64,000 nucleotides of DNA, from assembly GCA_010015805.1 (NCBI GenBank), contig ML978134.1, forward strand, positions 248,001-312,000, given 5' to 3'. Both the position numbers and the translations under genes were made by a program. The notes under the pieces were generated by a model. It did no database searches. It was not told the origin of the DNA and saw only the letters and a list, made by a program, of their open reading frames with translations. Shown in pieces: positions 41,821-63,066 of this stretch (its first letter is position 1; the number at the start of each line of letters is the position of its first letter). This DNA comes from Rhizodiscina lignyota (lineage: Eukaryota > Ascomycota > Dothideomycetes > Aulographales > Rhizodiscinaceae).

Positions 41821-42754
41821 ATGGGAGACTACTCCTCTATCACCACAGCCCTCGACTTGAGTTCGAACTTCGACGATGCCAAATACTCGGACTTGACGAT
41901 TCGATGCGGGGAGAAGACTTTCAAAGTGCACAAGATGATCTTATGCACCCAGTCCGAGTTCTTCGTCAATGCGTGTGAACGTGGGTTCAAGGTATCTAAT
42001 ATCCCACCAATTCTGCTCTTTATTGGAAGTACAACTGACAGCCATTTAGGAATCCAAGACCAACGAGATCGACCTTAGCGATAACGATGTCATCCTTATC
42101 GAAGCATTCCTGAGGTTCATGTACAAGGGCACTTACGAGGTGCCTCAGCCGGAAGGATACAAGGTGTCTGAGATCTGTTTTCACCTGGCGATGATCATCA
42201 TCGGCGACAAATACCTCCTGCAAACGTTAAAAGGCCACGCCGCGAAGAGAGTTCGACTAGCTCTTAGGACACGAGACTTCTCAATGAACGACCTCCTCGA
42301 CAAGGCACCAGCAGTATTCCAGAGCTTGCCCAAGCAAGATTTGGGAGCCCGAGAATCGGTGGCATATGCCGCGGCCTGGGAATATGCGATTTGCTTGTTG
42401 GGCGAGAAGCGCGGACTCGCGAATGCGGACAAGTCCACTGCCAAACTAAAGGCCGCTGTCATGAAGGATGCAGCCTTTGCTGGAGAAGTTGTGCAAAGCC
42501 TGTGCGACATGATAAGAGATGGCAACATGAATGATGCTGAGATCTTCGCCAACAAAGTTAAATGTCCACGCTGCAAGCGCACAGAGCGAAAACACATACT
42601 CGATAACAGGCCCGAAGATGTCGCCGAGTGGAAGTGCGTGAATTGCACACGGCGCTTGTATCAGAAGGAGTGGAGTGCCATAAAGCCAGCCGATCAAGGC
42701 TCTGGCAAGGCGCAGAATGCTGGGGAGGACCATGAGACACTGGCTGAAGAGTAA
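41821..42754 (+). CDS. BTB/POZ protein with CxxC...CxxC element (copy 1)
   Basis: Exons 41821-41991 and 42050-42754 give 291 aa. A BTB fold occupies residues ~1-125: FDDAKYSDLTIRCGEKTFKV, HKMILCTQSEFFVNACERGF, the exon junction FK-ESKTNEIDLSD, then FLRFMYKGTYEVP and HLAMIIIGDKYLLQTLKGHA. BTB domains dimerise and can bind Cullin-3, making this a possible substrate adaptor. The middle is helical and degenerate. Near the C-terminus CPRC (229-232) and CVNC (253-256) are spaced like a zinc ribbon and followed by LYQKEW. The 58-bp intron is phase 0, in the same place as in copies 2, 3 and 5. It lacks the first intron of its relatives and the C-terminal PFYYG motif, and ends in an acidic tail (GEDHETLAEE). 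Confidence 0.85.
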
Positions 42755-43436
42755 GTTGGGTGTGCAGGAACCGAGGGAGACGCCCTACCATTCTACTACC
42801 TCAAGTAGCGGAGTATGGCAGGCAGGCAGACTTAGATGCTCTTCTATATTACGATTCCGGTTGGATCCAAGAATGGCATTAGAGGGCACACAGTGGTGTC
42901 CTATCATAGATGGAGTCTTCCGGGCTCCCGTCGTGGTGTTCATGTATCGATCAATAGGCGTTTTGCGTGCAGAAGAAATTTAGCATTTGAATTCCAAGCT
43001 TATGTTTCAAGCATTTCTGCTGTTCATCAAAACTATATTGATGTACTGGCGAGGTCTTTTTTGATGTAATATTGCATGCTGAGTTCGGGTTTTGGTGCAA
43101 GCACGTACCTTCGCGTTTTCCACCAGTCCGAAGTGGTTAGCGCATGGCGCCGTGGCGCGTTCTCCTGACGCGATTGAGTATCCCCTTCATTTTGCTTCCT
43201 CTTAGTGAACTTCTTCCTTAGCTCCTTCATGTGCCGGATATGCATTCTGACATCCTCAGCAACAGATTCACACCGTTCACGCTCTAGGTTGTTAGGGAGT
43301 AGCTTGCTAAGCCTGTCTTAGAAGACGTTATCAAGGAAAAGAGACGCAGCAGGCCTCATACGCTCATGAGAAACCAGCTCCTTCGTACCACAGCTTCTAC
43401 AGACTCTTGTGGGAGCGACTTCAGTAGTATCTAACA
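42755..43436. other. Intergenic region
   Basis: The 682 bp lie between a BTB gene and an F-box gene on the same strand. No other gene is seen. Confidence 0.4.
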
Positions 43437-44960
43437 ATGGCAACCCAAACCCCCGCAACAAACCATAACAAGGAAGCTTCGTTCTTAGAGCAACTACCTA
43501 CAGAGCTCCTTCAAGAAATCGCCATTGAAGCTTGGCGGCCTAGCGAGCGCTTTAAGGGCAGGATGCCAACCGGTCCCGACGAGCTTGCAGTTGGAGATTG
43601 TTCTCGGTTAACCGCTTTACGACTCTGTTGCAAAACCATTTGTTGCAAGATCGAGCCTTTGTTCGTGTCCCTTTTCAAATTTCCCTGGCTATCCGCGACC
43701 ACGCAAAACCTCTCACATCTGCAGAAGATCTCGTTGCATCCAAGGTACAGACTAGCAGTTGAGGAGATCACAGATTTTACTACGTTGAAAGAGGTAGATG
43801 AGGATAAATACCGTCACTACAAACGCAAGGTTCGCGAAGAACTCGAGGCAGGACGACCAGACTCTGCCATCGCTCGCATCTGCAGATTATTTTTGAGAGA
43901 GCAACCTAATGATGTCTTAAAGGATCTCAGCTACCTAGAGAGATCAGGTTTGAGCACCGCAATGTTGACACTCGCTTTTCGGGACCTGCCAAATCTACAG
44001 GCACTACACATACTTCAGTCTGTCTCGCCTCTTCAATTTCGCCGGTTCACCACAAAGTATGGCCGCCCTTCCCTGTCTCATACCGTATCGACGTATCTTG
44101 CAGCCGCAGGCCTGGCTGGAAAGGAATTGAGACGACTCAGAGTGGGGTTTGGTGAATTAGAGGAATGGAGTATTCGGTCGGGGGTTGCTGTGCAGAATCT
44201 GCCTAAACCCTATTTCTCTCAGTACTCGAAAATGGAACATCTTGAGATCTTACTGAGTACACAAGACAACTTTCATCGAGGTATGTTGAGGAAACACGCT
44301 AGATTCATGTTTAGTCTCAATCTCATGGCTCTGCTAGGCCCAGATGACTGGATTCACTATACCGCTGAATTTCTCTCGGCAATGCCCGGACTCAATACAC
44401 TAAAACTTGGGTTTGATGACTGGATATACACGAAAACAATCTTTTCTAAGGTAGCAGATGTTCATTTGCCGTCTTTGACAATCCTCTGTCTCCATGGCCT
44501 TGAAATGCAAACAGAAGATTTCATCCGCTTTATCTGTCGCCAACCGGCACTTGAGCATCTGGAATTGTGCAACTGTAACTTCACTGGAGAGAGCTGGAAG
44601 GCGGTGCTCGAAACTTTACACCAATTCTCGAGTCTGCAGTTTCTTCGCATCTACCAAGTCGCAGAGAATGGCCTTCGTACGAGCTTCCCTGAAACGGGAG
44701 ATGTCATTGCCGAATCTGATTCAGACTTTCCTGATGTAGCGGAACACGAATTAGACCCATATCCTTATCGTATCACTGTGTGGCCGTCGGAAGCAAAGCG
44801 TGTCCGATTAGCTCAGTTCATTGATGACTACACTCTGACGATACTTTCGGCCCAATCTGATGAGGAAGATTATTATGTGTGGTTGGTGGTCATGAACGTG
44901 AAGCGTCGAATCTTGTACAGTTGGGCTGGAGAGTTGATTGAAACTGAAGGACCATTTTAA
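43437..44960 (+). CDS. F-box protein (copy 1, intact)
   Basis: Exons 43437-44280 and 44338-44960 give 488 aa. The F-box is near the N-terminus: ASFLEQLPTELLQEIAIEAW, then CSRLTALRLCCKTICCKIEP. F-box proteins link substrates to Skp1/Cullin-1 ubiquitin ligases. The remainder has leucine-rich-repeat-like spacing (LPNLQALHILQSV, MEHLEILLST, MPGLNTLKLGFDDW, LPSLTILCLHGLEM, QPALEHLELCNCNFTGESW, SLQFLRIYQV). I infer a 57-nt intron at 44281-44337 (GTATGT, CTGCTAG) that is in frame and stop-free. The related gene at 45877 has an obvious intron at exactly this point and phase, and removing it here gives gap-free alignment of the two proteins (STQDNFHRGPDDW against STKNPTYLGSTDW). If read through, the protein is 507 aa. 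Confidence 0.8.
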   Translation: MATQTPATNHNKEASFLEQLPTELLQEIAIEAWRPSERFKGRMPTGPDELAVGDCSRLTALRLCCKTICCKIEPLFVSLFKFPWLSATTQNLSHLQKISLHPRYRLAVEEITDFTTLKEVDEDKYRHYKRKVREELEAGRPDSAIARICRLFLREQPNDVLKDLSYLERSGLSTAMLTLAFRDLPNLQALHILQSVSPLQFRRFTTKYGRPSLSHTVSTYLAAAGLAGKELRRLRVGFGELEEWSIRSGVAVQNLPKPYFSQYSKMEHLEILLSTQDNFHRGMLRKHARFMFSLNLMALLGPDDWIHYTAEFLSAMPGLNTLKLGFDDWIYTKTIFSKVADVHLPSLTILCLHGLEMQTEDFIRFICRQPALEHLELCNCNFTGESWKAVLETLHQFSSLQFLRIYQVAENGLRTSFPETGDVIAESDSDFPDVAEHELDPYPYRITVWPSEAKRVRLAQFIDDYTLTILSAQSDEEDYYVWLVVMNVKRRILYSWAGELIETEGPF

Positions 44961-45876
44961 AAAAGGATTGCTGCCAATCACAGCAGGGTCAGTTTATGTT
45001 CAATGAGAAACACTTAATCTTGTGTCTAATCTAAATCCTGGCAATGGTGACCTGTGGGTTGATTGGTCACGAAACACCACACGTCTTCTCCAAAGTACTG
45101 AAAGATGATATATACTCATACCAAACGTGCTTCATAACCATCATCCCCAAAGCCGCTGAGGCTGGCATTCTTTATAAAACTATGAGGTGAATGCCCTATT
45201 TATGGGGTACAATATTGAGCTGAGGGGAGTAAACGGCCCCTAAGCATCTTTGCCCACTCCTAACCAGATTGACCTGGCTGCCCCGGCGGCGAACTCCTTA
45301 ATTTCGCTACGGGATGAGAATGGACGCCCATATTCCGGAAGAGCGATTGCGGCTCAATAAGTAATGGAGACGTAACCTTGATGCAGGTAGTCTTGATCCA
45401 GCCTTGGATGTCGAGATCTGCTCCCGATCTTAACTCCAAGCACGTGACTTCGCGTCTTGGATGGGAGTTTCCAAGTACTGGCGCGTTTTGCTAGCGCGAC
45501 GGTTCAGCTCCTCAGAGGATGAGAGCATTTCTTCTTCAACAGCTGCCATCTTGCGTTCACTCCCTTGCCCTTATTTCCATTGCTCCCATTTTGATTCTAT
45601 TCATCTATCCGCATCGGAGAATAACAAAAAGTCGGCCCCAGCTTGCGAAATAGAGTACCGCATAGCCAAGGTATCTGGCCTCCCTAACCTCTACGTCAGA
45701 CCTATAGATTTTCGACGGTACGCGATTGTGATGTACGCTCCAAAGCACCCAGAATTGACTTTTCAGAGATAGTCTCGTCTACCCTGAATTGCAAGAGCTG
45801 CTCGCGCTTTGGCATTAGAGTACAGTTTGGTCGGCGATAACGAACCTCTTCTCTCAACACCCTCGAGTCCACCGGG
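44961..45876. other. Intergenic region with one satellite copy
   Basis: The 916 bp lie between the two F-box genes. A 103-codon open frame at 45461-45772 runs into the satellite copy and is not judged a gene. Confidence 0.4.
45710..45820 (-). repeat. Dispersed copy of the 55-bp satellite
   Basis: The core TTTTCAGAGATAGTCTCG at 45761-45778 is the reverse complement of the array core at 9.3-9.7 kb. The flanks also align with the copies at 63.4 and 63.85 kb: GCTCCAAAG lies 28 bp before the AGATA in both places, and the following CTGCTC...TTGGCATTA is shared with the copy at 63.39 kb. Confidence 0.65.
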
Positions 45877-47355
45877 ATGCCGAGCCGTGCGTCAGGTCGT
45901 TCAAGACCAGCAAAGCGGCGTAAGAAGTCGCGAACGGATCAGCCGCGGCAGGCGTCTCTGTTGGAACAATTGCCCACAGAAATTCTTCAAGAAATCGCCT
46001 CGCTTGTCTCGCTTGAGGACGCCAGCAGATTGCACCCTCTGCGCCTCACATGTCGCAACGTACATTATAAAATTGAGGATGTGTTTTCGCAAGCATTCAA
46101 GGGGTGGCGTGCAGCTCTTTCCCCCGCTAAACTTCGGATCTGCAAGATATCTCAACACATTCACAGTATCGATTCAAGGTCGAGACAATCATTGACGTAA
46201 CCAATACGAAGCGGGAGTCTGATGAAGAGTATCGCAACAACAGACACATCTTTGTCCGCAGACTAGAACGAGACCGAAATGAACCCTGGGCCCCGGTTAT
46301 CCAGAAAATAATTGATGACATGGACGCTTGTCAAGAAGGCTTCAGGCGTCTAGAACGATCAGGGCTGGGCACCACAATGTTGACGTCTGCATTTCGATCC
46401 TTGTCCAACCTCAAAACTCTCATCATCATTGCGCAGCAGAAAGTTAGGCCTTCTGCACCAGCCGAATATTATGGGCCCGGATCGATCTCACACGTCGTTT
46501 CCTCTTATCTTGCCGCGGCAGGGATGGCTGGAATAAAGCTGAAGTCCCTCCTGGTGGGCACTGGAGCGATAACCCACTGGAACATCAAGCCTGGCGTCGC
46601 CGTAATGGATCTCCCCATGTCATTTCTCCCACTCTATGCGAACATAACATCGCTGCAGATCAAACTCAGCACAAAAAACCCGACGTACCTAGGTGAGTAA
46701 TCAATATTATGACACACTCAAAGCGGAAGACTTAATGTATTGTTTAGGTTCCACGGATTGGATTCGCCACACGTCTCTTTTTCTTTCCGCGATGCCCCTG
46801 TTGGAAGAGTTGTACCTCTCTTTCGATGATCGAATCCACACAGAAGCTATCTTCTCGGAAATTGTTAATAAGACCACATGCAGATGGCCCAATTTAAAGA
46901 GACTCCAGTTGATCGGCTTCCAGTTGAAAACAGCAGATTTACTCTCCCTCCTTGGGCGTCATCAGGAGAATCTGGAGAGATTCGCGGTGCATTACTGCGA
47001 CTTCACGGGAGAAAGCTGGCGCAGTATTCTAGAATGCCTTAGAGAGTTTCCAAGTCTTCAGGATCTGCGCATCATCTACATCGCACAAGACGGATGGCGA
47101 ACTTCATTCCAGAACAGCGGCCATGTTGCGGAAATCGATGAGCAGCTCAATACCGTCGATATTTTTTTGGGTGAATTGAAGTTTGATGGGTGCCCCTGGG
47201 CGCTAGTCCAGGACTTGAACAAGTACTGCGTGGTGGCGGAACATTGGGAGAATATACCGGCACGGATCGACCAGTTCTTGACTGACTTTACTGTAACTGG
47301 TCTTGCCGCTGAATCCGATGTCGATATCGAATTGGGCGACCTGTGGTTGGATTGA
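45877..47355 (+). pseudogene. F-box protein (copy 2), disrupted by a frameshift
   Basis: It is paralogous to the F-box gene at 43437. The frame opens at ATG 45877 with a basic leader and F-box (ASLLEQLPTEILQEIASLVS, then ASRLHPLRLTCRNVHYKIED). Near 46133-46137 it must shift: AALSPAKLR is in one phase and DLQDISTHSQYRFKVETIID in another, with one base missing between them. Comparison with WLSATTQNLSHLQKISLHPR of copy 1 shows both parts align without a gap, so this is a one-base loss, not an intron. The rest is intact to the stop, with an intron 46693-46747 (GTGAGT, TTTAG, phase 1). It ends in an acidic tail. A sequencing error would look the same; otherwise it is a young pseudogene, since no other defect is seen. 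Confidence 0.75.
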
Positions 47356-48017
47356 GCCCCAATTTGCCAGATTCACTAAACTGCTAGGATGTACAGCGCC
47401 TTCAATTACGATGGACTACATTCAATACAGATGTACGACCTCAATAAACACTGGCTGAAGTGTATTATATTGGGCACCCAAGTATGCTGAAACTCTCCTT
47501 GAAGACAAATTCGACTTGCCGCAATCTATTACAAGGCATTGAGCTGCTAAGGTATGTGAGCCTTTTATAAATCTGAATTTAAAATATGCCAACAACGTAG
47601 CCCCAGCGAAGCGTGTGCAGCGAAGCAGCGTCCCAGCAAAGCAGCGTCCCAGGCATACTGCATGAAAGCTGCAGGGATGCTCTCGCTTTGCTAAATCCGG
47701 CATTTCCTGCCCCCTTTCCACCTTCATCGAGGTCAACCTTCATCCTTGAGAGAACAAACCTCGTCGGGCAAATTGGTCGAATCACATAATTGAAGATCGC
47801 AATTTCAATTTCTGACGGGCACCTACGACAAAATGTACACACTCTTCGGTCACACCGATTCTATCTTGCGCAATGTGCATTGGTAAATTCTCATTCCATA
47901 TGCATGCACACCTCTATACTTTTGTACTTCGCCTTGAAACAGACTCCCTGTGGAAGTGCTCCAGCAATCCATAAGTTTCTTGTAAACAGCATGCAAGCAA
48001 CTCGATCCTTTAACCAT
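47356..48017. other. Intergenic, convergent gene ends
   Basis: It holds the 3' ends of F-box copy 2 and BTB copy 2. It contains a 16-bp direct repeat, CGAAGCAGCGTCCCAG at 47621 and CAAAGCAGCGTCCCAG at 47637. Nothing else is seen. Confidence 0.45.
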
Positions 48018-49521
48018 TCATTCCCAAGCTGAACCTTCTGGAGCCCCCCAATCGTCGTCGTTATACTTCCTGCCAGCTTCACAGTTAAAGAATCTACCGT
48101 AATAGAAAGGGATAGCGCCTTCGACAATCGGTGGATCCTCTTTCATTGGTTCATACAGGAAATCCTGAATCCAGCTCGTCCGTTTTCGCTCCCAGTCCCT
48201 GAAGCGACCATGACAACTCTCACAGCCGCAACAACCGCGGGGGCACCACCTGGGGCTTCTTCTGTATTCTCGGCGGCATCTCCTGATTCCACGGTCGTTT
48301 CGTGGAGTATTCTCAGAGTTAATTATTTTGAACCCATGGGGTTGTACCACCGGCAAATAGTCTGGCCAACTGTCGAAGAGAGGAAGACCGTCGTCAACCA
48401 CCTTCGATGCTTCATATTCCTCGTCGCGCAGCTTGACATATTCATCCCAATCCTCATACTGTGGAAGTTTGTTGTTTTCGAGTGTATCAAGGCCCATGGC
48501 TCTTTTCATGTTTTCGAAGAACACATCCCAATCATCCAACGCAGCACCCTTCGCAAAGCCATGGCGGCAATTGTGACAGTATGTCTCTTCATATGCCTCT
48601 TTAAATTCCTTTGAGCCATTCTTGTTTTCCTTGGAAGAGTTTTTACACCTCATACAGCGCCCTTTTCCGTCTTCGTCGTTATCCCGTGAGTAATAGACAG
48701 GCCACATCTCGGATATCCGGTGGCTGGAGGCAAGGCCGAAAGCGACGGCGGATTCGGGACAAGCATCTAATATCTCTTTGAGAGTGAACTGAGCGCAGTC
48801 GAGTTGCATCTTGAAGTTGGTATGTTGAAATATCTCGAACACGATGGGGAATTCTTCGGCAATCTGCTCAGCCAAGGGGTCGCGGAGCGAGCTGTCCTGG
48901 GGCAGAAGGAGTCCACAAATAGATGGCACTATGCAAAGGAGCTCGCCCACGTTAAAGCAATGCCGCTGTATCATATCGGTATACTGTCGGAGTGCAAAGT
49001 GTCGCAATGTATCGATTCCGTACTCGTCTCCCAAGGCGTACATTGCCGCATGGAACCCGATGTGTGACACGTCGTTCGGCAGCTTATATGAACCGCAGTA
49101 CATGAATCGCATCAGGCTGAAGACGATGGCAGGGTCCTTGTGAGTCAGATCAATTTCGCCGTGATTCGCTTCCTGTGTCGAGTCAGTTTGTTTCGATCGA
49201 AGAATTCTTCATATTGCTTCGCTGGAAATTCAATAACGAATCCACACATCGACGACGCACCTTGAAGGGACCCTTGAGTGCATTGCGAAAGAAGATGGAG
49301 CCACAGCACATGACAATTTTATGCGCTTTATATGCTTTAGTTCGACTGCGAATGATAAGGTCGGAGAGTCTTTCATCGTCGAAGTACCTGTGGTTTCCCT
49401 CAGTGTCCTTGGCTCTTGTGGTTTTCTCATTCGAGGCAAGTACTCACTCCGAAAGGCCCATGTGCAGTACGAGTACTGAGTTGCCATCTTTGTCTAGAGT
49501 ACTCCATTTGGATGATGACAT
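48018..49521 (-). CDS. BTB/POZ protein with zinc-ribbon-like element and PFYYG motif (copy 2)
   Basis: Exons 49521-49448, 49387-49261 and 49172-48018 give 451 aa. Exon 1 (MSSSKWSTLDKDGNSVLVLH) is variable between copies. Exon 2, exactly 127 nt, encodes the BTB core YFDDERLSDLIIRSRTKAYK, AHKIVMCCGSIFFRNALKGP, FK. Exon 3 continues EANHGEIDLTHKDP, LMRFMYCGSYKLP, HIGFHAAMYALGDEYGIDTL and a helical middle. CMRC (240-243) and CHNC (266-269) form a likely zinc site and are followed by DDWDVFF. Near the end lies a Cys/Arg-rich stretch (SPRWCPRGCCGCESC), then IPFYYGRFFNCEAG. A TATA-like ATATATAGG at 49675-49683 lies ~155 bp upstream. Intron phases are 2 and 0. A Cullin-3 adaptor role is inferred from the BTB domain only. 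Confidence 0.85.
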
Positions 49522-50025
49522 TGTTTCTGTGGGCTCTTCCCTCGTGGAATAAGGGCGATGATTAAGCTGGCTGGTAACGCTGGTTTGAGGAGGAGCAGCA
49601 ACTCCGGGACCGAAGACAGAAGTCGTTTTGAAAGAAAGTTGGAAGAAGACAACCTTTGAAGTATGAGGAGTGAAATATATAGGCGCTTGTGCGCGCTAAA
49701 CTGTGTTTCATCACCAACCAAGTGCCATGAACTGTTACTTTTGCATTATGTGAGGCAGTGTACGTCGTCAGTGACAGAAGTTTGAACACAGCATTTCGTG
49801 AAGATAAACCATGATTGCTTGAAGCCTAATAATACTGAATGAATCTGAAGCACCAGCCCTCCTCCAGTGCCGAGAGCTGCATTGTGACAAGTTTGACAAT
49901 TTAGGGACGTCCTCATGAATTACACGGCCCAAGTGACATCCGTCACAGAGTTTGCTGGTTCGAATCCAGCGGCTATTTCTCTCATTTGCCCCCGCCCTCC
50001 TTCCACATACCTCAGCTGCTTGCAT
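49522..50025. other. Intergenic region
   Basis: It holds the promoter of BTB copy 2 (TATA-like element near 49675) and the 3' UTR of BTB copy 3, both on minus. A tRNA T-arm-like palindrome near 49955 is discussed under rejected items. Confidence 0.45.
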
Positions 50026-51572
50026 TTACCCACGCATTCTCGCAGACCACGCTCCAGCACGTGTTTGTCCACACGGCTTACGGAGTCTGCCTCCCTGGTG
50101 ATTCTGGAACATGCCGTAGTAGAATGGCACGTTCCCGTCAACGGTCGGCAGGTCTTCTTGAGCTAGTCCGTATAGCATATCGTGAATCCAGCTTGTTCCC
50201 GTTTTCTTTGTCGTGGAGCTTGCAGATTGACCTCTGCCTTCTTCATGTCCACGTCCACTTCCTCGAGGAGGTCCTGCGGTATCGTCGCCACTGCGGACCG
50301 AGAGTTTGTGATCGCTGGTCGAGGAGGAGGAGCCGGCCCAGGTGAAAACAGATTGATGATCCTGCCGAGTGTTGAAGAACGGAAGGCTATCGTCGGCTAG
50401 TTTGACCTTGCCGTTGACTAGTTTGACCTTGTCGTTGACTAGTTTGAGCTTCTCGTCGACTAGTTTGATCTTGTCGTCGGCTAACTTGGCCTCCTCGTAA
50501 GCTAATTTGAACTCGTCGTAAGCTTCATCCTGAGTTTTGGAGTACTCCAGCCAATCTTCAAACGGGGGAAGATCATCATCGTCGACATCTTCCAAGTTCA
50601 GAGCCTTCTTTTTCGATTTCAAGAACTCGTCCCAGTCTTCTTGCACGAGATTGACGAGACACTCGACGCACTCTGCGCCAGCTTCGATAGCTCTACTCTC
50701 CTGCCGAGTCTCGTCAGCAGACCAACCGCACACCCCGCAGGGAGCCTCTCCGCCTCGATGAAGCATAATCCGAACCGTATAGAAGCGTCGGTTGGCAAAG
50801 AGAGCAACGTCAGACGCAAATTCCGGACAGATATCCAATGTTTGCTTGAACATGAACTCAGCACAAGCGATTGTGTCGATCGTCAAACTGTGAACGAAAG
50901 ACATGTCTTGGGCGACGCGCTGCACAAGAGGTTTGCGGAGGGCAGTCTTTTCGATCGGGAGAAGTTCGCAAATGCTCGGAACGATACCAAGCAGCTCGCC
51001 CATATTGAACCTCCTCCTTAGCAAAGCACCCTCGTAATGCGTCAAGGCAAGGTCTTGGAGTGTTTGGATGTCATATTCGTCGCCGAGCGCATACATGGCC
51101 GCGTGATACCCGACGTGTGACACCTGGGGCCTCGAAGGGAGTTCGTAATTTCCGACGTACATGAATCGCAGCATCTGATTCATGAGGAGGGGATCGTGAT
51201 GGCTGAGGTCAATCTCATTCGCATGGGACTCCTGTTCGACACGCGTAAAGTATTCCCCCGTCTCGGAAGCATACACCTCACAGTAAACATACTTTGAACG
51301 GACCCTCCAATGCCTTCTGAAAGAACTTTGATCCGCTGCATAGCACTATTTTATGTAGCTTGAAAACTTTCCACTGGCAACGAATAACGACATCTGAGTG
51401 TTTGCCGTTGTCGAAGTAACTGAGACACGTTAGTGTGCTTGAGTGGGCATTTCAGAATTCAGGTACGCGGTTTGGAATACCTTTCCATGCCCCTCTTCGC
51501 CATCAGAACCGAAAACTCGGGCAGCACGGCAAATGACATGTTGCATGGTGCAATTTCTCTGAACGACGCCAT
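50026..51572 (-). CDS. BTB/POZ protein with zinc-ribbon-like element, heptad repeats and PFYYG motif (copy 3)
   Basis: Exons 51572-51481, 51419-51293 and 51231-50026 give 474 aa. The 127-nt middle exon encodes YFDNGKHSDVVIRCQWKVFK and LHKIVLCSGSKFFQKALEGP, FK. Exon 3 has ESHANEIDLSHHDPLLMNQM, LRFMYVGNYELP, HVGYHAAMYALGDEYDIQTL. CGVC (238-241) and CVEC (261-264) precede QEDW (270-273). Residues 314-355 are six tandem heptads of pattern x-K-L-x-x-x-x (for example IKLVDEK, LKLVNDK, VKLVNGK), absent in the other copies and probably forming a charged coiled coil. The C-terminus has VPFYYGMFQNHQGGRLRKP. Start choice: ATG 51572; a second in-frame ATG lies 11 codons on. Regulation is not evident. Confidence 0.85.
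50386..50511 (-). repeat. 21-bp tandem repeat, six copies, inside BTB copy 3
   Basis: On the plus strand the units read like TTTGACCTTGTCGTTGACTAG, repeated with small changes. They keep the reading frame and encode the x-K-L heptads. Confidence 0.8.
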
Positions 51573-51918: not shown

Positions 51919-53287
51919 TCAGCCATGTGTGAATTTCCAAGGGAACCTCTCTTTCTCGGCCAGGTAGTCCTCGTACCGCATATCGCCAGGCTTCGGCCGC
52001 CGCGGGGCCTCGTGATTATGGAAATCGCCATAGTAGAACGGCAGTTGGATCTGCTCCGGGGTCTCGACTGCGTTGCTGCCTCCAGATACGCATGTAGTTG
52101 ACAGATCAATGCTGGCTGAGTCCCCAGGAGCATTTCCCATGCCTGCAATTTCTCTTTGATCTCGGGCACTAGCAGTCGAGAAACTTGCGGGTGTATCCTC
52201 GATGTCCAGCATCGTATCTGAAGTATCATTCGCAAACGGTAACTCAGCATTGGCGTCGATGTTCTCCCTTTCATGCCTCCGCCGAATCTCGGGCCATTCG
52301 TGCAAATTAGATAGAAGTTCACCATCTGGTATACCTTCCACACCGGCATCTCTCTTCTCGTCGAGGTAGAACTGTTCCCAATCTTCCTGCATGAGGTTTG
52401 TTCTGCAGTTGGGGCAGAAACTTGGAGACCAACGATAGGGTCTTTCATGGTGGTAAGGGTGCATGGTATAACAGCGGAGGCACATATAATCGTAAGGCTC
52501 TGCGTGGTCTTGGCCTGGTGAAGAGAGGACCATTATGTTCTTCGAGAGACGGGTGGTAATTGCCGCAGCAAAGTCAGAATTCGATCGGACAGCCCGTTCG
52601 AGGGTGTCGCTGGCCAGCTGAGTTAGGCCGCACCTCAACTCGGCCCCTGAAGAAAGGACGGACGGAGTATCCCAGCAGATTGTCAATACAAGCGGTTCGA
52701 TAAGGAGGTGGTTCCTTGGCGATGGCAGGAGCTCGCTGATGGCAGGAGCAATTGAGATGAGCTCGCCCATGTTGAAGCCGGCTTGGTTAAGCAATTCCCG
52801 GTATTGTCGCCTTGCAAAGTCCATTAATGTGCGGATGTCGTATTTGTCTCCGAGAGCGACCATCGCAGCATGAAATCCAACATGCGAAACATTGACTTCG
52901 TCCGCTCTCTCTCCCCGTGGCAGGCCATAGCGTCCTCGATACAGAAAGTCCATCATCCGATCAACGAGCAATGGATCATCATCACTTAAGTTGACCTCGT
53001 TGGTTTGCGCTTCTCTGAAAGGCCCCTCGCATAGATTCCTGAAATATTCTGAAGCGCTGCATAAAATCACTTTATGAGCTTTATAGGTCTTCGAGCGACA
53101 ATGTACGAGAAAGTCGGAATGGACGCCGCTTTTAAGGTACCTTGAAATAGTCAGATTATCACACAATCTGTACAGAATTAAACACTAGGTTCACTCACGC
53201 TGCCAGTCCACTATCAAGCATGCTACATGCCATTGCTTCGCCTCTAGACGGAACTTTCTCATCATCAAGGTAGTGGAACTCAATCAT
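51919..53287 (-). CDS. BTB/POZ protein with zinc-ribbon-like element and PFYYG motif (copy 4)
   Basis: Exons 53287-53199 and 53140-51919 give 436 aa. Exon 1 is variable (MIEFHYLDDEKVPSRGEAMA). The BTB core reads YLKSGVHSDFLVHCRSKTYK and AHKVILCSASEYFRNLCEGP, FREAQTNEVNLSDDDP; here the second intron present in copies 2, 3 and 5 is missing. FLYRGRYGLP and HVGFHAAMVALGDKYDIRTL follow. CLRC (250-253) and CPNC (272-275) precede QEDWEQFY. An acidic, Ser-rich linker leads to QLPFYYGDFHNHEAPRRPKP and a Lys/Glu-rich end. The 58-bp intron has donor GTGAGT, a CTGAC branch point and an AAG acceptor, phase 2 as in the relatives. A TATATATAG-type element (plus-strand CTAATATATAG near 53353) lies ~65 bp upstream of the ATG. 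Confidence 0.85.
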
Positions 53288-53651: not shown

Positions 53652-55999
53652 TCAAGGAAGCTCCAGCGCCTTCTTTGTGTTTTCGTAAACGACGTATGTC
53701 TGCCAATCGTAAGCAATTCGCACAAGCAATGACAATCACGCACGCCAGGATGCAATGTCTGTGCCGACAAACATGGCACGCAAGCGCAGACGGAAAGCAA
53801 AAACTCACAATCGACATAGCGGGGACGACCTTCATCAAATTCGGCGTCAGCCCTTTAAACAAGCCCCTCACTCCCTCGCCTTCCACAGTCTTCCTTGCGA
53901 CATCCCATAGGCCCGTATACGTCCTCGGATGCAGCGCAGTGCCCTGCGCCTGCAACCTCGTTCGCAGAAGATTGAGCGGGTACACCAGACTTGCGCCCAA
54001 CGCACCCGAGAAGCCTCCAATAGCCGCTGTTGCGAAGCCGCCCGGCGCAGCATCGTCCTCATGACACCCGAGCCTGCGCGCATTTCGGCGCGATATGGCG
54101 GATTTGAGGAACTCGAACGTGCCGAGGTCGATGGCGGCATAGGGAAACATCCCCGCCAGGCCTGCTGGGAGGCCACGATAGAAAGCCCGATGGCCGGATT
54201 CGCGCCACATCTTGCGGGCGGTTGTGACTATGAGAGCGTTGCCGTGTGCGCCTCCAGCGACTGTCTCGGTCTGGACGCGGCTGGGAAGTCTCCATGAGCA
54301 CATGGAGTCCCGACGTAGCAAGGGAGAAAAACTTACAATTTCAGCGTGTCAAGTGGGTATACTGCGAACCTGCGCCTTATTAGATACTATGTCATACTCC
54401 TCAGCTTAGATCATACGTACTGTGCTGTCATTCCAGCCAAGCCGCCAGTGACGAATTTTGACCAGCTCGAAATGTTCCTAGGATTGTCGTGGCCCTCTAA
54501 CCTCGCAAACATACGTTTACAGGCCTACTCAGGCGTTTAGGGACTGCGATACTATATTGTGTGAAGTAAACGTACCTCGTAGGAGCCGAATTTGATAGCC
54601 TTTCAACTTATCAGCTAATGTAAGGGAATATGGCATAAATAGCATGAAAAACGAACCGACTCGGGCATAATTTTTACCACCTAGAGAGGCTATCAGTGAG
54701 AACCATGAAGCCGGATACAATGACAGTACATACGTTCAAACCATTGCCTGTCAAGATAAGTGATGAGTATGTTGCCTAAGACCCAAGGGAGAGTCCACTC
54801 ACCTGCGAACAAACTCCGTACGCCACCCGCCGCCCACAGATCCTTCAACGCATTCACAAGCGTCGACCCAGCGTGCTTCAATGCCGTGGCAGGAGCCCCA
54901 GCCTTTGCAGCCTGAACCGTAGCCTGCGCCGTGCCTATCTGAGCGATGAGGTAGACCCGTAGGCGGTCGAGCGGAGCGGTGCAAGTGCGTGACACAGCGC
55001 CAGAGACGGCCCCTGCCACGAAGTAGCCTGGATTTGGCAAGAAAGGAGTCAGCGCCGTGGTTACACTCTCCGATAGCGTCAACTCGGTGTCCAAATCAAT
55101 AGTCTCGCGCTCCTGCGGCGGACCGTCGACCATCACGTTGCTGTCGTGCTCGGGCGGGGAGAGGTACTGAGCGTCGAACGGTATCCGGGGGTCTTCGTAT
55201 TCCGCCTGCTCGTAGACGGCGTCCCAAGCGGCCTGCGGCGGCGGGCGGTGCGGCTTTGCAATGTCGACGATCGCGCCAAAGAAGAGTCTAAGAAATTTTG
55301 TACCTATGCTCTGGATTGTCTCGTCGCTGAGGACGACGTCTCCTTCTGGGTTCAGCATCACGGTGGAGGAGTAGTAGGAGAGGACGGATCGGAGGTTGGG
55401 CGCGGTCGCGGGGATGAAGAGTAGGAAGTTTCTGCAACGCGTCAGGATGTTTGATATCGGGGCGCAAGATGTACAGACCGCCATTCGTCGAAGCTGATGA
55501 CGCCGTCGTGGTTCGAGTCAACTTCGTCAAAGAAGTTGTCAAGCTTGGAGGAGGGGACGGCCAGGCCCGCTCGTTGCAGAGCTTCCTTCAACTCGCCCTT
55601 CTCCATCTTGCCGTCGTCATTGCGATCTATACTTTTGAACAGTATCCATAGTTGTTGTTCCGTCTGTTTCACAAAGTTCTCGAATTCTTCACCCAATGTC
55701 AGCATTGTCTCGCGATTGCTTGTGTGATGTCATCGGGAGTGTCGCTAACCATGATATGATATTCGCCCATCGTGGTTTTCGTCCATAGCGTCGAGCACGT
55801 CTTTGAGGAGGTTATCCGCATTTTTCAAAGCTATAATACTATGAGCCATGTGAAACAAATCATTGGGTCCAAGCAACATACGGTGATCCATCTTCCTCAA
55901 CCCTCTCTTTAGGTTCGCGAGATCGAGGTAGCCTCGCCTGCGGTAATCGAGCTTGTGCCATAGTGCCTCCAGTCTGGCGTCCTGGCTACGAGCGTCCAT
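53652..55999 (-). CDS. Calcium-regulated mitochondrial carrier (SCaMC / Sal1-like ATP-Mg/Pi carrier)
   Basis: Ten exons (55999-55750, 55686-55479, 55431-54803, 54747-54734, 54680-54657, 54599-54576, 54524-54421, 54369-54337, 54280-53809, 53699-53652) give 601 aa. The N-terminus has EF-hand loops at residues 73-84 (DENHDGRISYHE), 104-115 (DRNDDGKMEKGE) and 140-151 (DSNHDGVISFDE), preceded by a degenerate one. Three mitochondrial-carrier repeats follow, with signatures TAPLDRLR, VYPLDTLKFR and VYPLNLLRTR. This order defines the short calcium-binding carriers that exchange ATP-Mg for phosphate across the inner membrane in response to cytosolic calcium. The four microexons (14, 24, 24 and 33 nt) supply GNGLNVVKIMPESAIKFGSY, E and later QFAVYPLDTLKF, all invariant carrier sequence, which confirms them. 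All sites are GT-AG with consistent phases. Confidence 0.9.
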
Positions 56000-56570
56000 G
56001 TTGAAGGTCGCTGGAGCCGCCGTCACCTGTTGATTGTCATGGTTTGGCTATGAGCGGCCCCAGATATAAGTCCGACTCGTTGGAATGCACTTTCGAGGCG
56101 CATCCAGCACCTGCAAAGCTCAATTGCTGGAGAGCACGGGATGGTAAAGGCAAAAGAAAACGATGTCGGACGTTCACGGCGGGTAGTTGTGGGGTTGGGG
56201 AAGCTTACTTTTCGAGCCGTTTCCTGTAGAGCGTTGGGAATGACGTTGCTTTGGCGGTGAATGGCGGCAGAACATGGGGTTGGCCCATCAACGACGATAC
56301 GATATAGGCACCCTTTCGTCTCGTCTCTGGATGCAAGTTGCTTGCCATGATCATGATTTTATGACCTGAAGGCCCTCTTGATGGGTGTTTTTAAGCAAGC
56401 TGACAGTCTCATAGCTTCTATATCATGATCGCTGGAGCGTCCGAGTGGATATGATCACGCGTTTCCACGCGCCTCTTACTGCGATGTACTTGAAGAAATT
56501 CAAGTATTACTTCTATTCGTACGATTTTGGTGCCTCTGTGGCTCGTCACTAGGCACTGTAGCTCATCACC
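56000..56570. promoter_or_regulatory. Divergent promoter of carrier and cyclin C genes
   Basis: The 571 bp separate two divergent start codons. No coding frame or clear TATA is seen. Confidence 0.45.
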
Positions 56571-57576
56571 ATGGCCGCCAGCTACTGGGAGTCATCCCAG
56601 CGGCAGTTCTGGACATTCTCGAAGCCAAAGCTGATAGCAATGCGCTCGAAGCTCGAGGAAAGCGAACGATCTGTGGTCCAGCAGTTTCCGCTGCCAGAGC
56701 GACGGCTCCTGAACATATATTTCATGCAACGTGCGATATTTCCTCTGACGTATATATGTATGCCACTAACGAAGCACAGAGATCCAGCGACTGGGTAAGA
56801 AACTCGGCAACCTGCGGCAGCAAGCCATGGCGACGGCGCAAGTCTACGTTCGAAGATATTACCTCACGGTCGAATTGAGGCGAACAAATCCATACCTCGT
56901 CCTTTCTGCAGCACTGTACATTGCTTGCAAGATGGAGGAGTGTCCGCAGCACATCCGCATAATAGTAGTGGAGGCTCACAACCTCTGGCCAGGTGAGCGA
57001 TTACGGGTTTGTCTGATCAGAGGAATAGGCAAAGCTGACATGTAGAAAGACGCTGTAATGGCAGACATCTCAAAGCTCGGCGAATGCGAATTTGCCATCA
57101 TCGCAGAACTGAGCTCGCAGCTTATTGTTCATCACCCTTACCGTAGTCTAGGAGAGCTACAACCGACATTCGGGCTTGAAACAGAGGAGACGACACTTGC
57201 CTGGTCCATTATCAATGACCACTACCTGACCGACCTACCTTTGATGTATCCTCCGTTTATCATCGCAATCACCGCGGCGTTCCTAGCTGTTGTGCTGAGA
57301 CCATCGCAAAGCGGGACTCAAGGGCAGATACAAGCAGCCGGCTTGGCGAAGGCGTTGGATAGTGTGACGAATGCACAAAGCTCTCCTGGATCTGGTCCGA
57401 ATCCACGTGTGCAGAAGATGGTCAACTGGCTGGCCGAGAGCAGTGTTGATATGGAGCAGATCGTGGACTGCACCCAGGAACTGATATCGCTATACGAGGT
57501 CTGGGAGCAGTACAATGAGAAGACATGCAAAGACCAGATAAGCCGATTTGTCAAGTCAAGAAGCCTTGAGAAGTAG
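56571..57576 (+). CDS. SSN8: Cyclin C (RNA polymerase II Mediator kinase-module cyclin)
   Basis: Exons 56571-56730, 56780-56992 and 57050-57576 give 299 aa. The N-terminus [20 protein letters not shown] is the cyclin C hallmark (A-x-Y-W-x-S-S-Q). The first cyclin box contains [30 protein letters not shown] and [20 protein letters not shown]. Exon 3 gives [20 protein letters not shown], the conserved S-K-L-G-E-C-E-F, then the second box with [14 protein letters not shown] and [20 protein letters not shown]. Cyclin C pairs with CDK8 (Ssn3) in the Mediator kinase module. Intron 1 is 49 bp, phase 1; intron 2 is 57 bp, phase 1, with an AAG acceptor at 57047-57049. Choosing this acceptor rather than the TAG four bases earlier is what keeps the frame and family spacing. 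Length is normal. Confidence 0.92.
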
Positions 57577-58920
57577 TTTTAGGGCCTGGAGACGTCCAAT
57601 TGAGCCCTCAAGCGCTCAGTATTCTGCTCGATGAATACGTAGACGCCTGTCAATTTGACAATGACGTACTTTCGGCACAATTCAAAGCGATTGAGCTTCA
57701 TATAGGCATCTGCCCCATAAGCTGGACGCATGAGCGGTTTCAAAGCGTTCCAAAGCATGCAGGAGTGAGATAGCAGCCGATTGCGACGAACTAAAAATGC
57801 CACTACAGCGAGTCAGGGCCAGGTACAAGCGCTTCGCAGAGAGGGTCTGACGACACTTGCTTCCATCGAGGCTCAGTCGGGCGACCATTTCTTCGGGCTC
57901 GCCCAAAATTGGGGTGGGAGTTGAGGGTAGCGCTTCAAGCGGAGGCTGTGCCCGGCTCGGGCTGCCGGTGTTGGTGTGAGAGTCGCGAGCACGTCAGCCA
58001 TTCGCAGTGGAGTGAGCACGTTGAAACGGCAAGGACAGCAGCGTCGCGCAGGGCGGGGGATCACGTCAGCGAGTGTGCGAGTGCGAAGCCGGAGGAGGGT
58101 GGCGACTTGCGTGAGTAGCGCGGGCGGCACCATGTCGGCAGCGCCGGGAGCAAGATGAGCGGTTCGTTTAAGCCAGACACGCACCTTTGGGACTGGTGTG
58201 GCCGAAGCGCGACAAGCGAGGCATGCAGAGTAGAGGTGAACGCTTCCTCGAATAGAAAAATTTTACTTTCCCATCTTCGACAGCGAGCCAGTTGCAGCTA
58301 GACCGTGAAGCGTGTGGAGAGCCGGCGCCTACGGCACGCCAAGTCATCGAGCGGGCTAGCGTATCGCGACAATGGAGAGGTGTTGGGCGCGTGGGGACGA
58401 TCAGAGAGTGGCAGCAGTGCCTGGAGCGTGGAATTGGCGAGTCGGCGGCGACGAAGTTGTGGTGCATTGCAGTGATGCTGGCGGCCAGACTGCGCGATCG
58501 ACTGTTGTGCGGCGCGGAATGGCAAGGCTGGGCGGGCGCAGCGCTGTTCCTTGAATGCTGGCCCTTCCAAGTGTCTGCTGATCCATGGCCGCCGGGGCCC
58601 GTGCGCCGCTGGCTCAGGGCCACTGGCCTACCTATCATTCCCTACCCACCCTCTCCCAGGCCTCTCGTCTCTCCTCTCCACCCACTTCACACCGCCTCCA
58701 CCAACAGCCTCCTCCATATCGTCGCCCATAACTTACTTCTATACTCAACCGCTTCGCACCACAGCATCTTCCGCTCTCTTTGCCCTCTCTGCCGCTCGCA
58801 CGCCACCCACGACCCCCTTTGTTGTGCTTCGGAAGGCACCGGGCAACGTCCAGTCAACAGCGCGCCGCTCGCAACGTCACTCATCACAACATTGGTATCC
58901 CCAGCAGCGCATCCGTCAAC
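57577..58920. other. Long upstream region, 1.3 kb
   Basis: It lies between cyclin C and the small conserved protein gene. The first part is GC-rich with long overlapping open frames on both strands (for example 58168-58638 minus and 58292-58966 plus) that look like compositional artefacts. From about 58600 it is strongly pyrimidine-rich (CTCCC/TCTCC), as in fungal promoters and 5' leaders of well-expressed genes. Confidence 0.5.
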
Positions 58921-59711
58921 ATGTCAAACTTTTACTACAGAGGGCAGAATCACATCTCGCACATAAACAACCACCAGCACCAGCATCAACACCATGGTGG
59001 TCGCTCGCGCCGGGCGCACAGACAAGTCAAGGCCGTGCGGACAAAGGAGGTCGTCGAGACCGTCCAAGTCACAAACTTCCGTCGCGACTTTGAAGCAGCC
59101 CGGTCCTTTGAGATCGAGGATGACGAGATCTTCTGCCCTTTCAACCTCTTGACCGAGGACGATGTAAGTCACATTCTTATTGCGGGACAAGCAAAACACT
59201 CGCACGCACCACATCCCGCGTATGCACAACGTCAACCTCAAAAACAACAATGCAACGCTGGGATCAGACGAAAGCGTCATTCACAACAGTGCAACGCTCG
59301 TCACGGTCAATCTTCTCCCCCAACCCCTCCAAGCCCTCAATCTGATCAATCCATCAACGAGCACCCAATCTCCCCGACTTGCAGTGATCATACTTATGGT
59401 CCTCATAGCTCCAATCAATTAGTTCCTCCGGCTCGGATCGAAGCAGTTTGTCGAGTGGTTCACCCGAACATTCTCCCTTGCAACATCAACTGCAACCCAC
59501 GCCGTCATTCGTCTTGTCCTCGGCAGCGACCTTTACCCCCTCTTCATACCAAGGGACCCAGTCGACAACAAAGATCCACCAGCCACTCGCGCAGCGTCAA
59601 CTAAAGGCAATCCCAATCGTCGACCCAAGCACCCGCGCCGTCGCTAGTCCGCCGCCGTCTGTCTCGCCTGCAAGGCAGATGCAGCAGCAGTTGATGAACC
59701 GCCGGTGGTAG
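58921..59711 (+). CDS. Conserved fungal protein of unknown function, His/Gln/Ser-rich
   Basis: Exons 58921-59163 and 59409-59711 give 181 aa. The N-terminus has a Tyr start and a His/Gln run (MSNFYYRGQNHISHINNHQH, then QHQHHGG), followed by basic residues. A conserved core follows: VTNFRRDFEAARSFEIEDDE, IFCPFNLLTEDDLQSISSSG, then SDRSSLSSGSPEHSPLQHQL. The end is Pro/Ser/Gln-rich (AIPIVDPSTRAV ... QQQLMNRRW). The F-x-x-x-F-E-A-x-R-S-F and L-L-T-E-D-D-L-x-S-I blocks are, from memory, a recurring fungal signature without known function; the S/P-rich part suggests phosphorylation. The intron is unusually long for this window (245 bp) and phase 0. The CATAG acceptor at 59408 was chosen because it alone keeps the frame open. 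Confidence 0.78.
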
Positions 59712-61059
59712 ACCGGGCAACTGCGGTGCGGGATAATGCTTGCTTCTATTTTGGGTTTGTAACGCTCTTCGTGGCTAGGCTGGTGGACCACCGTTATCTT
59801 CTTGGGCGACACGTCATCGACCTCTTCAACGACTACGACCTTGTTTCGACGACGCGATCGATTATTTTACGACTTTAACCCTGTACAAACATTACGAAAA
59901 ATACGTTCTGCTCTTGTTTGGCTTGTTCGACATCGGTGATACCACTTTGAACGGTCTGGGTCCACGGCGTTGCAATACCCACCTTTTTTACGAACGTCAA
60001 CTATCGGATAGACAGCATCTAATTTCCCCCTGCATCGCACGAGCTTTGTGTTTACGTCGCATACTAAGCGGGCTTTTGCACATAACTGGTGTTGTTTTCA
60101 TGGGTTTCCGGCCGGGTTTTTCCAAACGTCATCGCAACGAAAATAAATCTTCTCAAGAGACGGCTTCTTTTGCATTGGTGCGGGCGATATCCCAGCGGAC
60201 ACGATCGGGTACATAGTTGAATCTGAGCATGGTGTTGCATGGGTGAATGGAGATGGGTTTCTTTTTGTATATCTCGAACCGGTTTCAACTTGGAAGCCTG
60301 TGTCCTTTGTATGCTGGGATGATCGCAGGTCATGTCCGTTTTCTTGTCAGGTTTCAATTCCCCTCGCTGTGTTTTTCTCTGGTCTCTTTTTGCAAACGCC
60401 GAACGCTTCTGTACTCATGGCTGGAAGGGCAAAGGCGTCGGGAATGGTATGGCGGGCGCTGCGTTGAGCGACGCCTGTTTGGATCGTGTAGTCTCTTGAT
60501 TCCTAGTGATTGTTCGAATATCACAACTTACTCAATAACTCGGCTCTCACCAATTGCTTGCGTCCAAGTGCAGTGACCTCGCTAGTGGCTCTTAGCATCG
60601 TCAGCTATGCTCTAGTCCCTCAAATCTGGAGTTTCATGGCTGGTCTGGACCCTTAGCCCGTGACGTTTTGACACAAAGCATTGGTTATCCTGTTTGACAG
60701 AACAGGCCATGTCACCAGATCCAGAATATGCGTTCGGCTAAAGCTCGCTGACTGTCTCCATATCTCCGACTCGTTGATCCCCTTAAGTCAGACTGAGCGC
60801 AAATGACGTAACCGTGCCGAGGGCTGGAGTAGACTCCTGACCTACGACAACGAAAGCTTCGCACCGTCAAGCAACCAGGCTACATTTCAGGGGTCTCCAA
60901 CGCAGAAAACCATTGATGTAATAATTTGTACCCATCAATTGAGGCTAAAGAAAAGTCTGGAACTCCCCAATTGATTCGAGCACTAAGCTTTCAGAGCTCG
61001 CGAAGCAAGCCTCGACCTCGACTCGCCTTTGTCGTGCGACCAATCCTGATAACATCACA
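59712..61059. other. Intergenic region, 1.35 kb
   Basis: It includes a probably long 3' UTR of the preceding gene (T-rich, with several TTTT runs to about 60.2 kb) and the promoter of the next. Only short frames are seen. Confidence 0.45.
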
Positions 61060-61563
61060 ATGTCTGCTCTTCGCGCCTTTGCAAGGGGAGCTCCCCGCGT
61101 CTCGAACACATATGCTATCCCTCGACTTCAGACTGCGTCCTTCCGGACATCGGCGGTTAGACTGGCGGGCAAGGAGGATAAGCTGCGTACGTGTACACCA
61201 CATGCATGATCGAAGGCCTTATCATCAAGCATCATTCACACACTGCACGCGATATTGAAGGGCCATGGCTAACAGATTGTGACCATGCAGATCACGAAGG
61301 CCGTGCCGAGGAAATCGAAGTCCACAAGCAAGAGTCGCTGAAGAAGTCAAAGGAGGGCAAGGGTGAATGGACAGAGGAACTTGGAAGCAGCAGCGAGAGT
61401 ATCGTATGTCGCCCAGCTCCCTATCTATACCAATCGCATTTGCCGTAGAGAACAGAGGCTAACAAACCATCTTTCACAGATCAAGGCCGAGCGCGGCGAG
61501 ATGAAGACGACGGCGGAAACGATAGAGAAGCTGCAGGAGGAAACAAAGAAGGTCAAGTCTTAG
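61060..61563 (+). CDS. Small mitochondrial protein of unknown function
   Basis: Exons 61060-61186, 61291-61403 and 61480-61563 give 107 aa. The N-terminus (MSALRAFARGAPRVSNTYAI, then PRLQTASFRTSAVRLAGKED) is rich in Arg, Ala and Ser without acids, a classical mitochondrial presequence with a likely cleavage near SFRTSAVR. The mature part is very hydrophilic and helical: HHEGRAEEIEVHKQESLKKS, KEGKGEWTEELGSSSESIIK, AERGEMKTTAETIEKLQEET, KKVKS. This resembles LEA-like or stress-type hydrophilic mitochondrial proteins found in many ascomycetes, but I cannot name a function. Intron 1 (104 bp) is phase 1, intron 2 (76 bp) phase 0. The tiny exons and compact gene are typical of this type. Confidence 0.8.
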
Positions 61564-61991
61564 GCGGTTGTTGATTTGGCATAATCCAGGATGGGAGAGA
61601 TGATACGATAATGATGAGAGGTGTACATACCAATAAGTTGGCACGGCTTCTCTTATATTCGGTGATGAATGCATTCATGATACACGAGGTCGGCCATCGA
61701 TCCACTATTTTGAAAGCCATCGCCCATTGCCTTTGGAGTTATCTCAACTAATGACCTTTCATGAATACAATAAGCCCGGTATTGCATCCCGAGTTCGCTG
61801 TTTGGGCTACTACGGGGATGCTCGATGGCTCCTGCCATTTCGCGCGCCTGAAGTATAAGTTTAAGAACGCACGTCATCTCTTGCACTTGAACACTTCCAC
61901 GAACTTTCAACTCCCTTCAAATCACAATCATCGCGGCTTACTTTGCGATTCACCTTAAATCACTCTACACTCCTTCTCGCTGCTACTACAA
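61564..61991. other. Intergenic region
   Basis: It holds the 3' UTR of the small mitochondrial protein gene and the promoter of BTB copy 5. Nothing else is seen. Confidence 0.4.
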
Positions 61992-63066
61992 ATGAAGCGC
62001 ACAGCGGCAGAGGCGCTTTTGGATGCTCCTTCCGCCTCAACTGTAGTACCGACGGGAATGGAGCAATCGGATAGCAAAGCCGTGGGCCTCAAGGCGTGAG
62101 TTACTGAGACTTATTGCAAGCAGCTCATTTCAAGCGCTGATGCGGGCTAGCTACTTCGATAATGACAAGTTCTCTGACTTTACCATCATCTGCCGAGAGA
62201 GGCGCTTCAAGACGCACAAGATCATCATCAGCAGTCACTCCAACTTCTTCTCCAATGCATGCGAGGGAGGTTTCAAGGTCCATATTGAAGCCCACATTTA
62301 GTTCGGATTGGTTCTAACCCTTTTTTTTTTTTGGCAGGAGGGAAAGACCAACGAAATCGAACTTAGTGAAGACTACCCGGAAGTCATTGCGGAAATGCTT
62401 CGCTATATGTATGAAAGCGACTACGATGAACCCGCGGAAGCGTGCGCTACCAGTTTCCACGCAGCCATGGTTGGCATCAGCGACAAATACGGAGTCACAG
62501 CTTTGTACGAACCAGCCTTGAAGAAGTTCAAGTACGCATTGCGTGAGTGTCGGGGCCTAGAGGGCTATTGCAACATGAGGCACCTCTTGGAGAACGTGTC
62601 TCACATCTTCCAACTGCTACCTGACACCAATCGGGACCTTCGAGACCCTCTTGTTATAGAGGTCACGAGAGAATTTAACCTCTATCGAAGGGACAAAGCC
62701 GCTCTCGATCCCACTCTATACAAAACTGCATTAGACTGCTTGTCTGAAGCCGTGAGATCGAACTCCGACTTCGCGGCTGACCTTATCAACGCTATACATG
62801 TCCGCGAGTTCGATTTACATTCACCCGTGGATAGAACACGAACGGAGAGCTCCCACCTCCTGTGCAACGGGTGCTGGGAAAAATTCAGCCTCCGTGATGG
62901 GCATATCACTCTGGAGAATGAGATCTATTGGAACCGGAGCTGCAAGTACTCGGGAGGGTTCATATGCGATCACTGTCTCGTGAACTTGAGTCTGCAAGAC
63001 TTCACCGGCTATGGTATCACGCGTCCACCAATGGAGGAAAGGGCTCCCTTCTTCTTGTCTTATTAA
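61992..63066 (+). CDS. BTB/POZ protein with zinc-ribbon-like element (copy 5)
   Basis: Exons 61992-62095, 62151-62277 and 62338-63066 give 319 aa. Exon 1 encodes a variable leader (MKRTAAEALLDAPSASTVVP). Exon 2, again exactly 127 nt, encodes YFDNDKFSDFTIICRERRFK and THKIIISSHSNFFSNACEGG, FK. Exon 3 continues EGKTNEIELSEDYPEVIAEM, LRYMYESDYDEP, SFHAAMVGISDKYGVTALYE and ALDCLSEAVRSNSDFAADLI, a block shared with copy 4. CNGC (253-256) and CDHC (287-290) precede SLQDF, where relatives have E/D-D-W. The protein stops after APFFLSY, which may be a truncated form of the PFYYG end. Intron 2 has a run of 12 T before its CAG acceptor. It lies ~8.7 kb from the other BTB genes, beyond carrier, cyclin C and two small genes. 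Confidence 0.85.

Follow-up and report, generated by a model that had tools for sequence, protein, structure and literature searches.

We consider it probable, at roughly 0.6, that the genes described here form a tandem, anciently diverged BTB family whose members act as substrate adaptors of Cullin-3 and carry a small C-terminal module that binds zinc. Five of the genes (g1 to g5) lie in the window, by which we mean the whole 64 000-base stretch analysed (contig C14, bases 248001-312000, in a genome of 33.4 Mb in 29 contigs). A sequence-only reading of this DNA had proposed five genes that each combine a BTB domain with two CxxC pairs, the second pair mostly having an acidic residue after it and then Trp or Phe. 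When all frames were read and the genes were spliced, the five genes were recovered at the proposed places with the proposed motifs, including the acidic and aromatic residues (listed by gene below). For g5, the motifs stood but the start at 61992 did not: the ATG there is in another frame, and an upstream exon is thus likely.

Four of the models carry an intron in the BTB domain, between ..FK and E.. (58 nt in g1, 88 nt in g2, 61 nt in g3 and 60 nt in g5). At this position g4 reads FRE uninterrupted, with no intron. Because many GT/GC..AG candidates were available and we selected the splice sites by eye using g4 as the guide, the common intron position arises partly by construction. Positions below are those of the window; module coordinates were derived from the spliced models (for g4, from its unspliced model).

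41821-42754, plus strand: g1, CPRC/CVNC followed by KEW
41821-41991, plus strand: g1 exon 1, encoding the start and the BTB domain's first half, donor GTATCTAA, Pfam BTB match at C14:289866-289985
42050-42754, plus strand: g1 exon 2, remaining BTB, helical region, CPRC/CVNC, KEW and stop
42563-42646, plus strand: g1 paired CxxC module, CPRC..CVNC
48018-49410, minus strand: g2, CMRC/CHNC followed by DDW
49261-49410, minus strand: g2 exon with the first half of the BTB domain; start codon probably upstream
48018-49172, minus strand: g2 exon 2, remaining BTB, CMRC/CHNC, DDW and C-terminal IPFYYG
48567-48656, minus strand: g2 paired CxxC module
50026-51451, minus strand: g3, CGVC/CVEC followed by EDW
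51293-51451, minus strand: g3 exon with the first half of the BTB domain, Pfam BTB match at C14:299299-299418; start codon probably upstream
50026-51231, minus strand: g3 exon 2, remaining BTB, CGVC/CVEC, EDW and C-terminal VPFYYG
50659-50739, minus strand: g3 paired CxxC module
51919-53166, minus strand: g4, one open frame without the common intron, BTB domain (Pfam E 1.5e-13), CLRC/CPNC, EDW and LPFYYG C-terminus; start codon provisional
52405-52482, minus strand: g4 paired CxxC module
62092-63066, plus strand: g5, CNGC/CDHC followed by QDF
62092-62277, plus strand: g5 exon with the first half of the BTB domain; further exon upstream likely
62338-63066, plus strand: g5 exon 2, remaining BTB, CNGC/CDHC, QDF and stop
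62863-62976, plus strand: g5 paired CxxC module

The family is larger than the five genes first proposed, so that the suggestion of a local expansion held and was extended. A profile built from the five proteins was run against the open stretches (40 codons or longer) of 47 loci, and g4 and g5 served as queries in a genome search. Two further copies follow on the same contig: g6, just outside the window (about C14:312393-313270; CHEC/CDGC, KDW), and g7, also outside it (about C14:324680-325584; CKSC/CDDC). The cluster therefore comprises seven copies in about 36 kb and reaches to about C14:325600. There are also dispersed relatives: one on contig C3 (CLIC/CRAC, DDW), one on contig C13 (C13:550300-551400; CQSC/CDHC) and one at C16:600189, the last from the search with g4 and g5. 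For the other distant matches of that search, the CxxC pattern was covered through the profile run and the genome-wide control described below. The C13 copy is probably broken, since it has an in-frame TAA and no clear BTB start. Separately, a remote BTB protein on contig C1 (locus L040, 1506-2375, minus strand) has four CxxC pairs at its end, where the sequence bears a weak, sub-threshold likeness to a double zinc ribbon (E 0.13). Searching prokaryote and viral contigs with the BTB-CxxC family gave 18 and 82 pattern matches, none of which was confirmed.

A tree of ten rows (g1-g7, the C3 and C13 copies and the remote C1 protein) was weak, with no inner branch starred and five of seven counted as open. 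The better-supported forks join g2 with g3 (91/83), and g2, g3 and g4 with the C13 copy (93/93).

The BTB domain of the family is well supported. The g4 domain scores 51.3 bits against a Pfam cut-off of 20.5, and in the genome search the cut-off was also exceeded by g5, g6 and g7 and by one exon each of g1 and g3; exon 2 of g3 gave a match below cut-off. The g2 protein produced no Pfam BTB match and is absent from the genome-wide places described below, and is counted as BTB because it aligns to its paralogues. The C-termini of g2, g3 and g4 share the letters [IVL]PFYYG. Related letters close g5 (PFFLSY), are present in the C13 copy (LLPFYMKD) and, in the g1 frame beyond its stop (42755-42810, plus strand), appear as ..LPFYYLK.

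This fungus is rich in BTB domains: a whole-genome Pfam search gave 50 BTB places, a number that is counted per exon and is a lower bound. Six of these fall inside the cluster (g1 exon 1, g3 exon 1, g4, g5, g6 and g7). As counted in the available part of PMC1257465, S. cerevisiae has five BTB proteins and S. pombe six. Another local BTB group was seen at C4:1734022-1748358, with seven places in about 14 kb; it has no paired CxxC at a comparable distance.

The genes have a fungal look, which we infer from the short introns, the F-box and BTB families and the three cullins. The interval separating g1 from g2 holds a related pair of F-box/LRR-like genes (43437-44960 and 45877 to about 47355, plus strand) that are 40% identical over 198 aligned positions; the first has LRR matches and the second an F-box match, all below cut-off. 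Upstream of g1, next to the BTB/F-box cluster, is a gene with RING and TRAF-type zinc-finger matches over cut-off (39406-40281, minus strand). For positions 1-41800, 17 ORFs of at least 220 aa are listed, nine of which (1218-37367) were scanned with Pfam. Eight of the nine matched ordinary families: FMO-like, CorA, MTHFR (15328-16857), SF3a60/Prp9 (20481-21806), MR_MLE, LCCL, acyltransferase and MFS. The remaining ORF (2995-5451) had no Pfam match.

The sequence-only reading also raised the recruitment of Cullin-3 (Cul3) by the BTB domain. In KLHL3 and SPOP, a phi-x-E motif in the BTB domain contacts Cul3 (PMC3616122, in the portion available). The corresponding place in our proteins, matched by eye, reads F[KRH]E in g1-g7 and C3, all eight copies. 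A single frame covers it in g4, whereas the other seven have it across the inferred splice; the motif is therefore read directly in g4 alone, and its presence elsewhere, like the common intron, relies in part on splice sites that were inferred. The genome has a partner to match. It encodes three full cullins, with best solved matches to Cullin-1, Cullin-3 and Cullin-4A, as well as a partial cullin match on contig C5; three is also the number of cullins given for fungi in the accessible text of PMC2785787. The CUL3 gene is at C3:2587788-2589895. Its exon reads SYEELYRFAYRLVL / SYEELYRFAYRLVLKKQGEKLY, in which the residues are spaced like F54, Y58, Y62 and L66 in the Cul3 contact helix. Y58, Y62 and L66 are kept and F54 is replaced by Y, so the contact helix is conserved.

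We also looked at the motif elsewhere in the genome. A simple regular expression caught 14 BTB segments. Five are from the CxxC family (g4 with phi-x-E; g2, g3, g6 and g7 interrupted at the intron), and nine are from other genes. A phi-x-E-like motif was present in seven of the nine others, with one (locus L026) at a doubtful position. The motif is thus not special to the BTB-CxxC family, and we dropped it as a family-specific sign. Judged by the motif, it is plausible that many BTB proteins of this genome bind Cul3. Recruitment of Cul3 by the CxxC family is consistent with its phi-x-E-like motif and with the presence of CUL3, but the motif does not discriminate this family from other BTB proteins.

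We also considered whether the proteins might instead be BTB-dimer scaffolds or transcriptional regulators that act without Cul3, with the zinc module binding nucleic acid or another protein. Transcription factors do occur among BTB-ZF proteins, as far as the portions of the sources at hand describe them, and among the weak profile matches are transcription factor S and a transposase zinc ribbon, both far below cut-off. However, the phi-x-E-like motif is found in every one of the eight aligned copies (given the inferred splices), the contact helix of CUL3 is conserved, and the five partial proteins scanned contain no DNA-binding domain over cut-off. We regard this explanation as unlikely, though as the likeliest of the alternatives to the Cullin-3 adaptor reading.

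Eight copies (g1-g7 and C3) entered the alignment, to which neither the broken C13 copy nor the remote C1 protein contributed. These copies are 25-40% identical over aligned positions. An alignment of g1-g5 has 20 invariant columns, with all four cysteines among them; with eight copies, 18 columns remain invariant, including the F and E of phi-x-E and again the four cysteines. Fourteen of these columns run through to a Leu at column 165, followed by the four cysteines. Past column 130, only that Leu and the four cysteines are invariant, i.e. 5 of 123 gap-free columns. The strong conservation claimed for the cysteines, which supply four of those five, is therefore upheld. Both CxxC pairs are kept in 8/8 aligned copies and in the broken C13 copy, all of them paralogues from one genome. 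In the models of g1-g5 the first CxxC falls at residues 218-238, and the pairs are separated by 20 (g1), 22 (g2), 19 (g3), 18 (g4) and 30 (g5) residues. Across the family the spacing forms a short group (18-22; g1-g4, C3 and, by eye, C13) and a long one (29-30; g5-g7). Seven of the eight copies (g1-g6 and C3) have the acidic-aromatic motif behind their second pair; it is absent in g7.

Two controls were used to judge whether such a pattern could arise by chance. In the first, the residues after the BTB domain were shuffled (5000 trials per protein, eight proteins) and pairs 15-35 apart were scored. Two CxxC pairs resulted in between 4 and 88 of the 5000 trials, the highest number being for g2, which has 16 cysteines in this region. 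In the second, we searched for two CxxC pairs 12-45 apart within 1800 bases of each Pfam BTB place, a search in which intron-split pairs would be missed. All six places in the cluster had two pairs, at offsets of 219-239. Among the other 44 places, two had them at 189 and 222, one at 44 (a short ORF) and three solely at 440-473, leaving 38 with none. On the basis of both controls, a chance origin of the cysteine pattern was rejected.

The same alignment bears on whether this is an ordinary birth-and-death gene family with little current function, in which the cysteines are kept by simple inheritance of a fold. The C13 relative, with its in-frame stop and no recognisable BTB start, would fit such turnover, as would the tandem F-box/LRR-like genes in the same region. 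Against it, the seven clustered copies remain open past the intron and keep all four cysteines at only 25-40% identity. We think this explanation very unlikely.

We think it likely that the four-cysteine module binds zinc. The usual zinc-ribbon arrangement has its two CxxC pairs separated by about 18-30 residues. No zinc-ribbon profile exceeded its cut-off in the proteins scanned. Below cut-off there were matches to NMD3 (g4, E 0.0097), Zn_ribbon_4 (g7, E 0.02) and, for g1, Zn_ribbon_IS1595 (the transposase zinc ribbon; E 0.022), NCBIfam ECs_2282_CxxC (E 0.0022) and transcription factor S. Unrelated families gave similarly weak matches, namely Csm1 (g2), Borna virus P24 and YceM (g3) and APC repeat (g4), so the sub-threshold zinc scores are near noise. 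When the family profile was compared with solved structures, four of the eight matches at E ≤ 1 were zinc-finger or LIM proteins aligned over the CxxC part, the best being Aart (E 0.0012); the others were SPOP (E 0.31 and 0.41), MamA and an ATPase subunit. The recurrence of weak zinc-profile matches over the CxxC part would fit a metal site.

Structure prediction gave models with confidence too low to place the cysteines, both for g4 (AlphaFold2 with nine window rows; mean pLDDT 55.8, pTM 0.45) and for the C-terminal part of g1 (five rows; pLDDT 48.4, pTM 0.24). In the low-confidence g4 model, a couple of short strands lie next to the first CxxC. Foldseek with this model returned nothing at E ≤ 0.001, the best match being SPOP at a non-significant E of 0.17. 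In a Pfam scan of the five window proteins at E ≤ 1, in which the C-termini were complete and the first exon was missing except in g4, there was no TAZ or C2H2 match. Kelch, MATH and ankyrin modules likewise gave no Pfam match there, and all five module types were rejected for these proteins.

Least likely of the explanations considered is that the cysteines are a redox or electrophile sensor, comparable to the cysteines of KEAP1, and not a structural zinc site: paired CxxC motifs can form disulfides, and the BTB adaptor KEAP1 is responsive to both oxidative and electrophilic stress according to the source text available, but the spacing here is that usual for zinc ribbons and the weak profile matches are to zinc-binding families.

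If the proteins are indeed Cullin-3 adaptors, the BTB domain would most likely dimerise and would dock on the fungus's Cullin-3 through the phi-x-E loop and the helices behind it. The four-cysteine module, situated at or some way before the end of the protein, would be held by zinc and, together with the variable helical region that precedes it, may form or brace a surface that recognises substrates. Presumably these would then be ubiquitinated, and the copies may have diverged towards different substrates.

A more ambitious version of the adaptor reading takes in the neighbouring genes. Here the cluster would be a dedicated and strongly diverged array of Cullin-3 receptors, with a compact zinc module replacing Kelch or MATH as the reader, which together with the adjacent F-box/LRR-like pair and RING-TRAF gene would make up a local reservoir of ubiquitin-ligase specificity. 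We offer this only as a speculative and rather doubtful extension.

To our knowledge, the targets of most fungal BTB proteins are not known. Were the four-cysteine module a substrate reader, it would represent a compact type of receptor that small proteins would suffice to test, and naturally diverged versions for comparison are supplied by the tandem array. C-terminal CxxC pairs are found in many fungal BTB proteins, and this could make the g1-g7 family an ordinary one. Among the matches listed from the open-access literature, no paper naming a fungal BTB plus paired-CxxC family appeared, which speaks only weakly for its absence. The available portion of PMC11412873 lists, for psychrophilic Dothideomycetes, an expanded BTB orthogroup (52 members) that may or may not be the g1-g7 family, and in the part of PMC3828140 at hand BTB/POZ occurs solely in a table of expressed families.

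The TAZ domain binds zinc, and is a larger domain with a different pattern of cysteines and histidines. The idea that the architecture is without precedent has to be weakened, because BTB proteins with a C-terminal zinc module are already known as BTB-ZF (PMC1257465) and as the plant BTB-TAZ subfamily (PMC13075204), both as described in the accessible parts of these papers. A BTB domain with a zinc module is thus a known kind of protein, and the paired-CxxC pairing itself matched no curated model over cut-off. Plant BTB-TAZ proteins are alike in having a BTB domain and then a C-terminal zinc module; they differ in that the Pfam scans of our five proteins gave no TAZ match. Animal BTB-ZF proteins share the order of an N-terminal BTB domain, a linker and a C-terminal zinc-binding module, but theirs consists of Kruppel C2H2 fingers whereas here there are two CxxC pairs.

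With SPOP, KLHL3 and other Cul3 adaptors the likeness is in the BTB phi-x-E at the Cul3-contact region and the helices that follow; SPOP was both the best fold match, although not a significant one, and a weak sequence match. In place of the MATH or Kelch domain of these adaptors, for which the five proteins gave no Pfam match, there is the four-cysteine module. Finally, S. pombe offers fungal examples in Btb1-Btb3, BTB proteins whose interaction partner is Pcu3, a homologue of Cul3 (PMC1257465). As far as the available part of that paper describes them, they differ from the family reported here in being BTB-ankyrin proteins, and Btb3 needs both of its two BTB domains.
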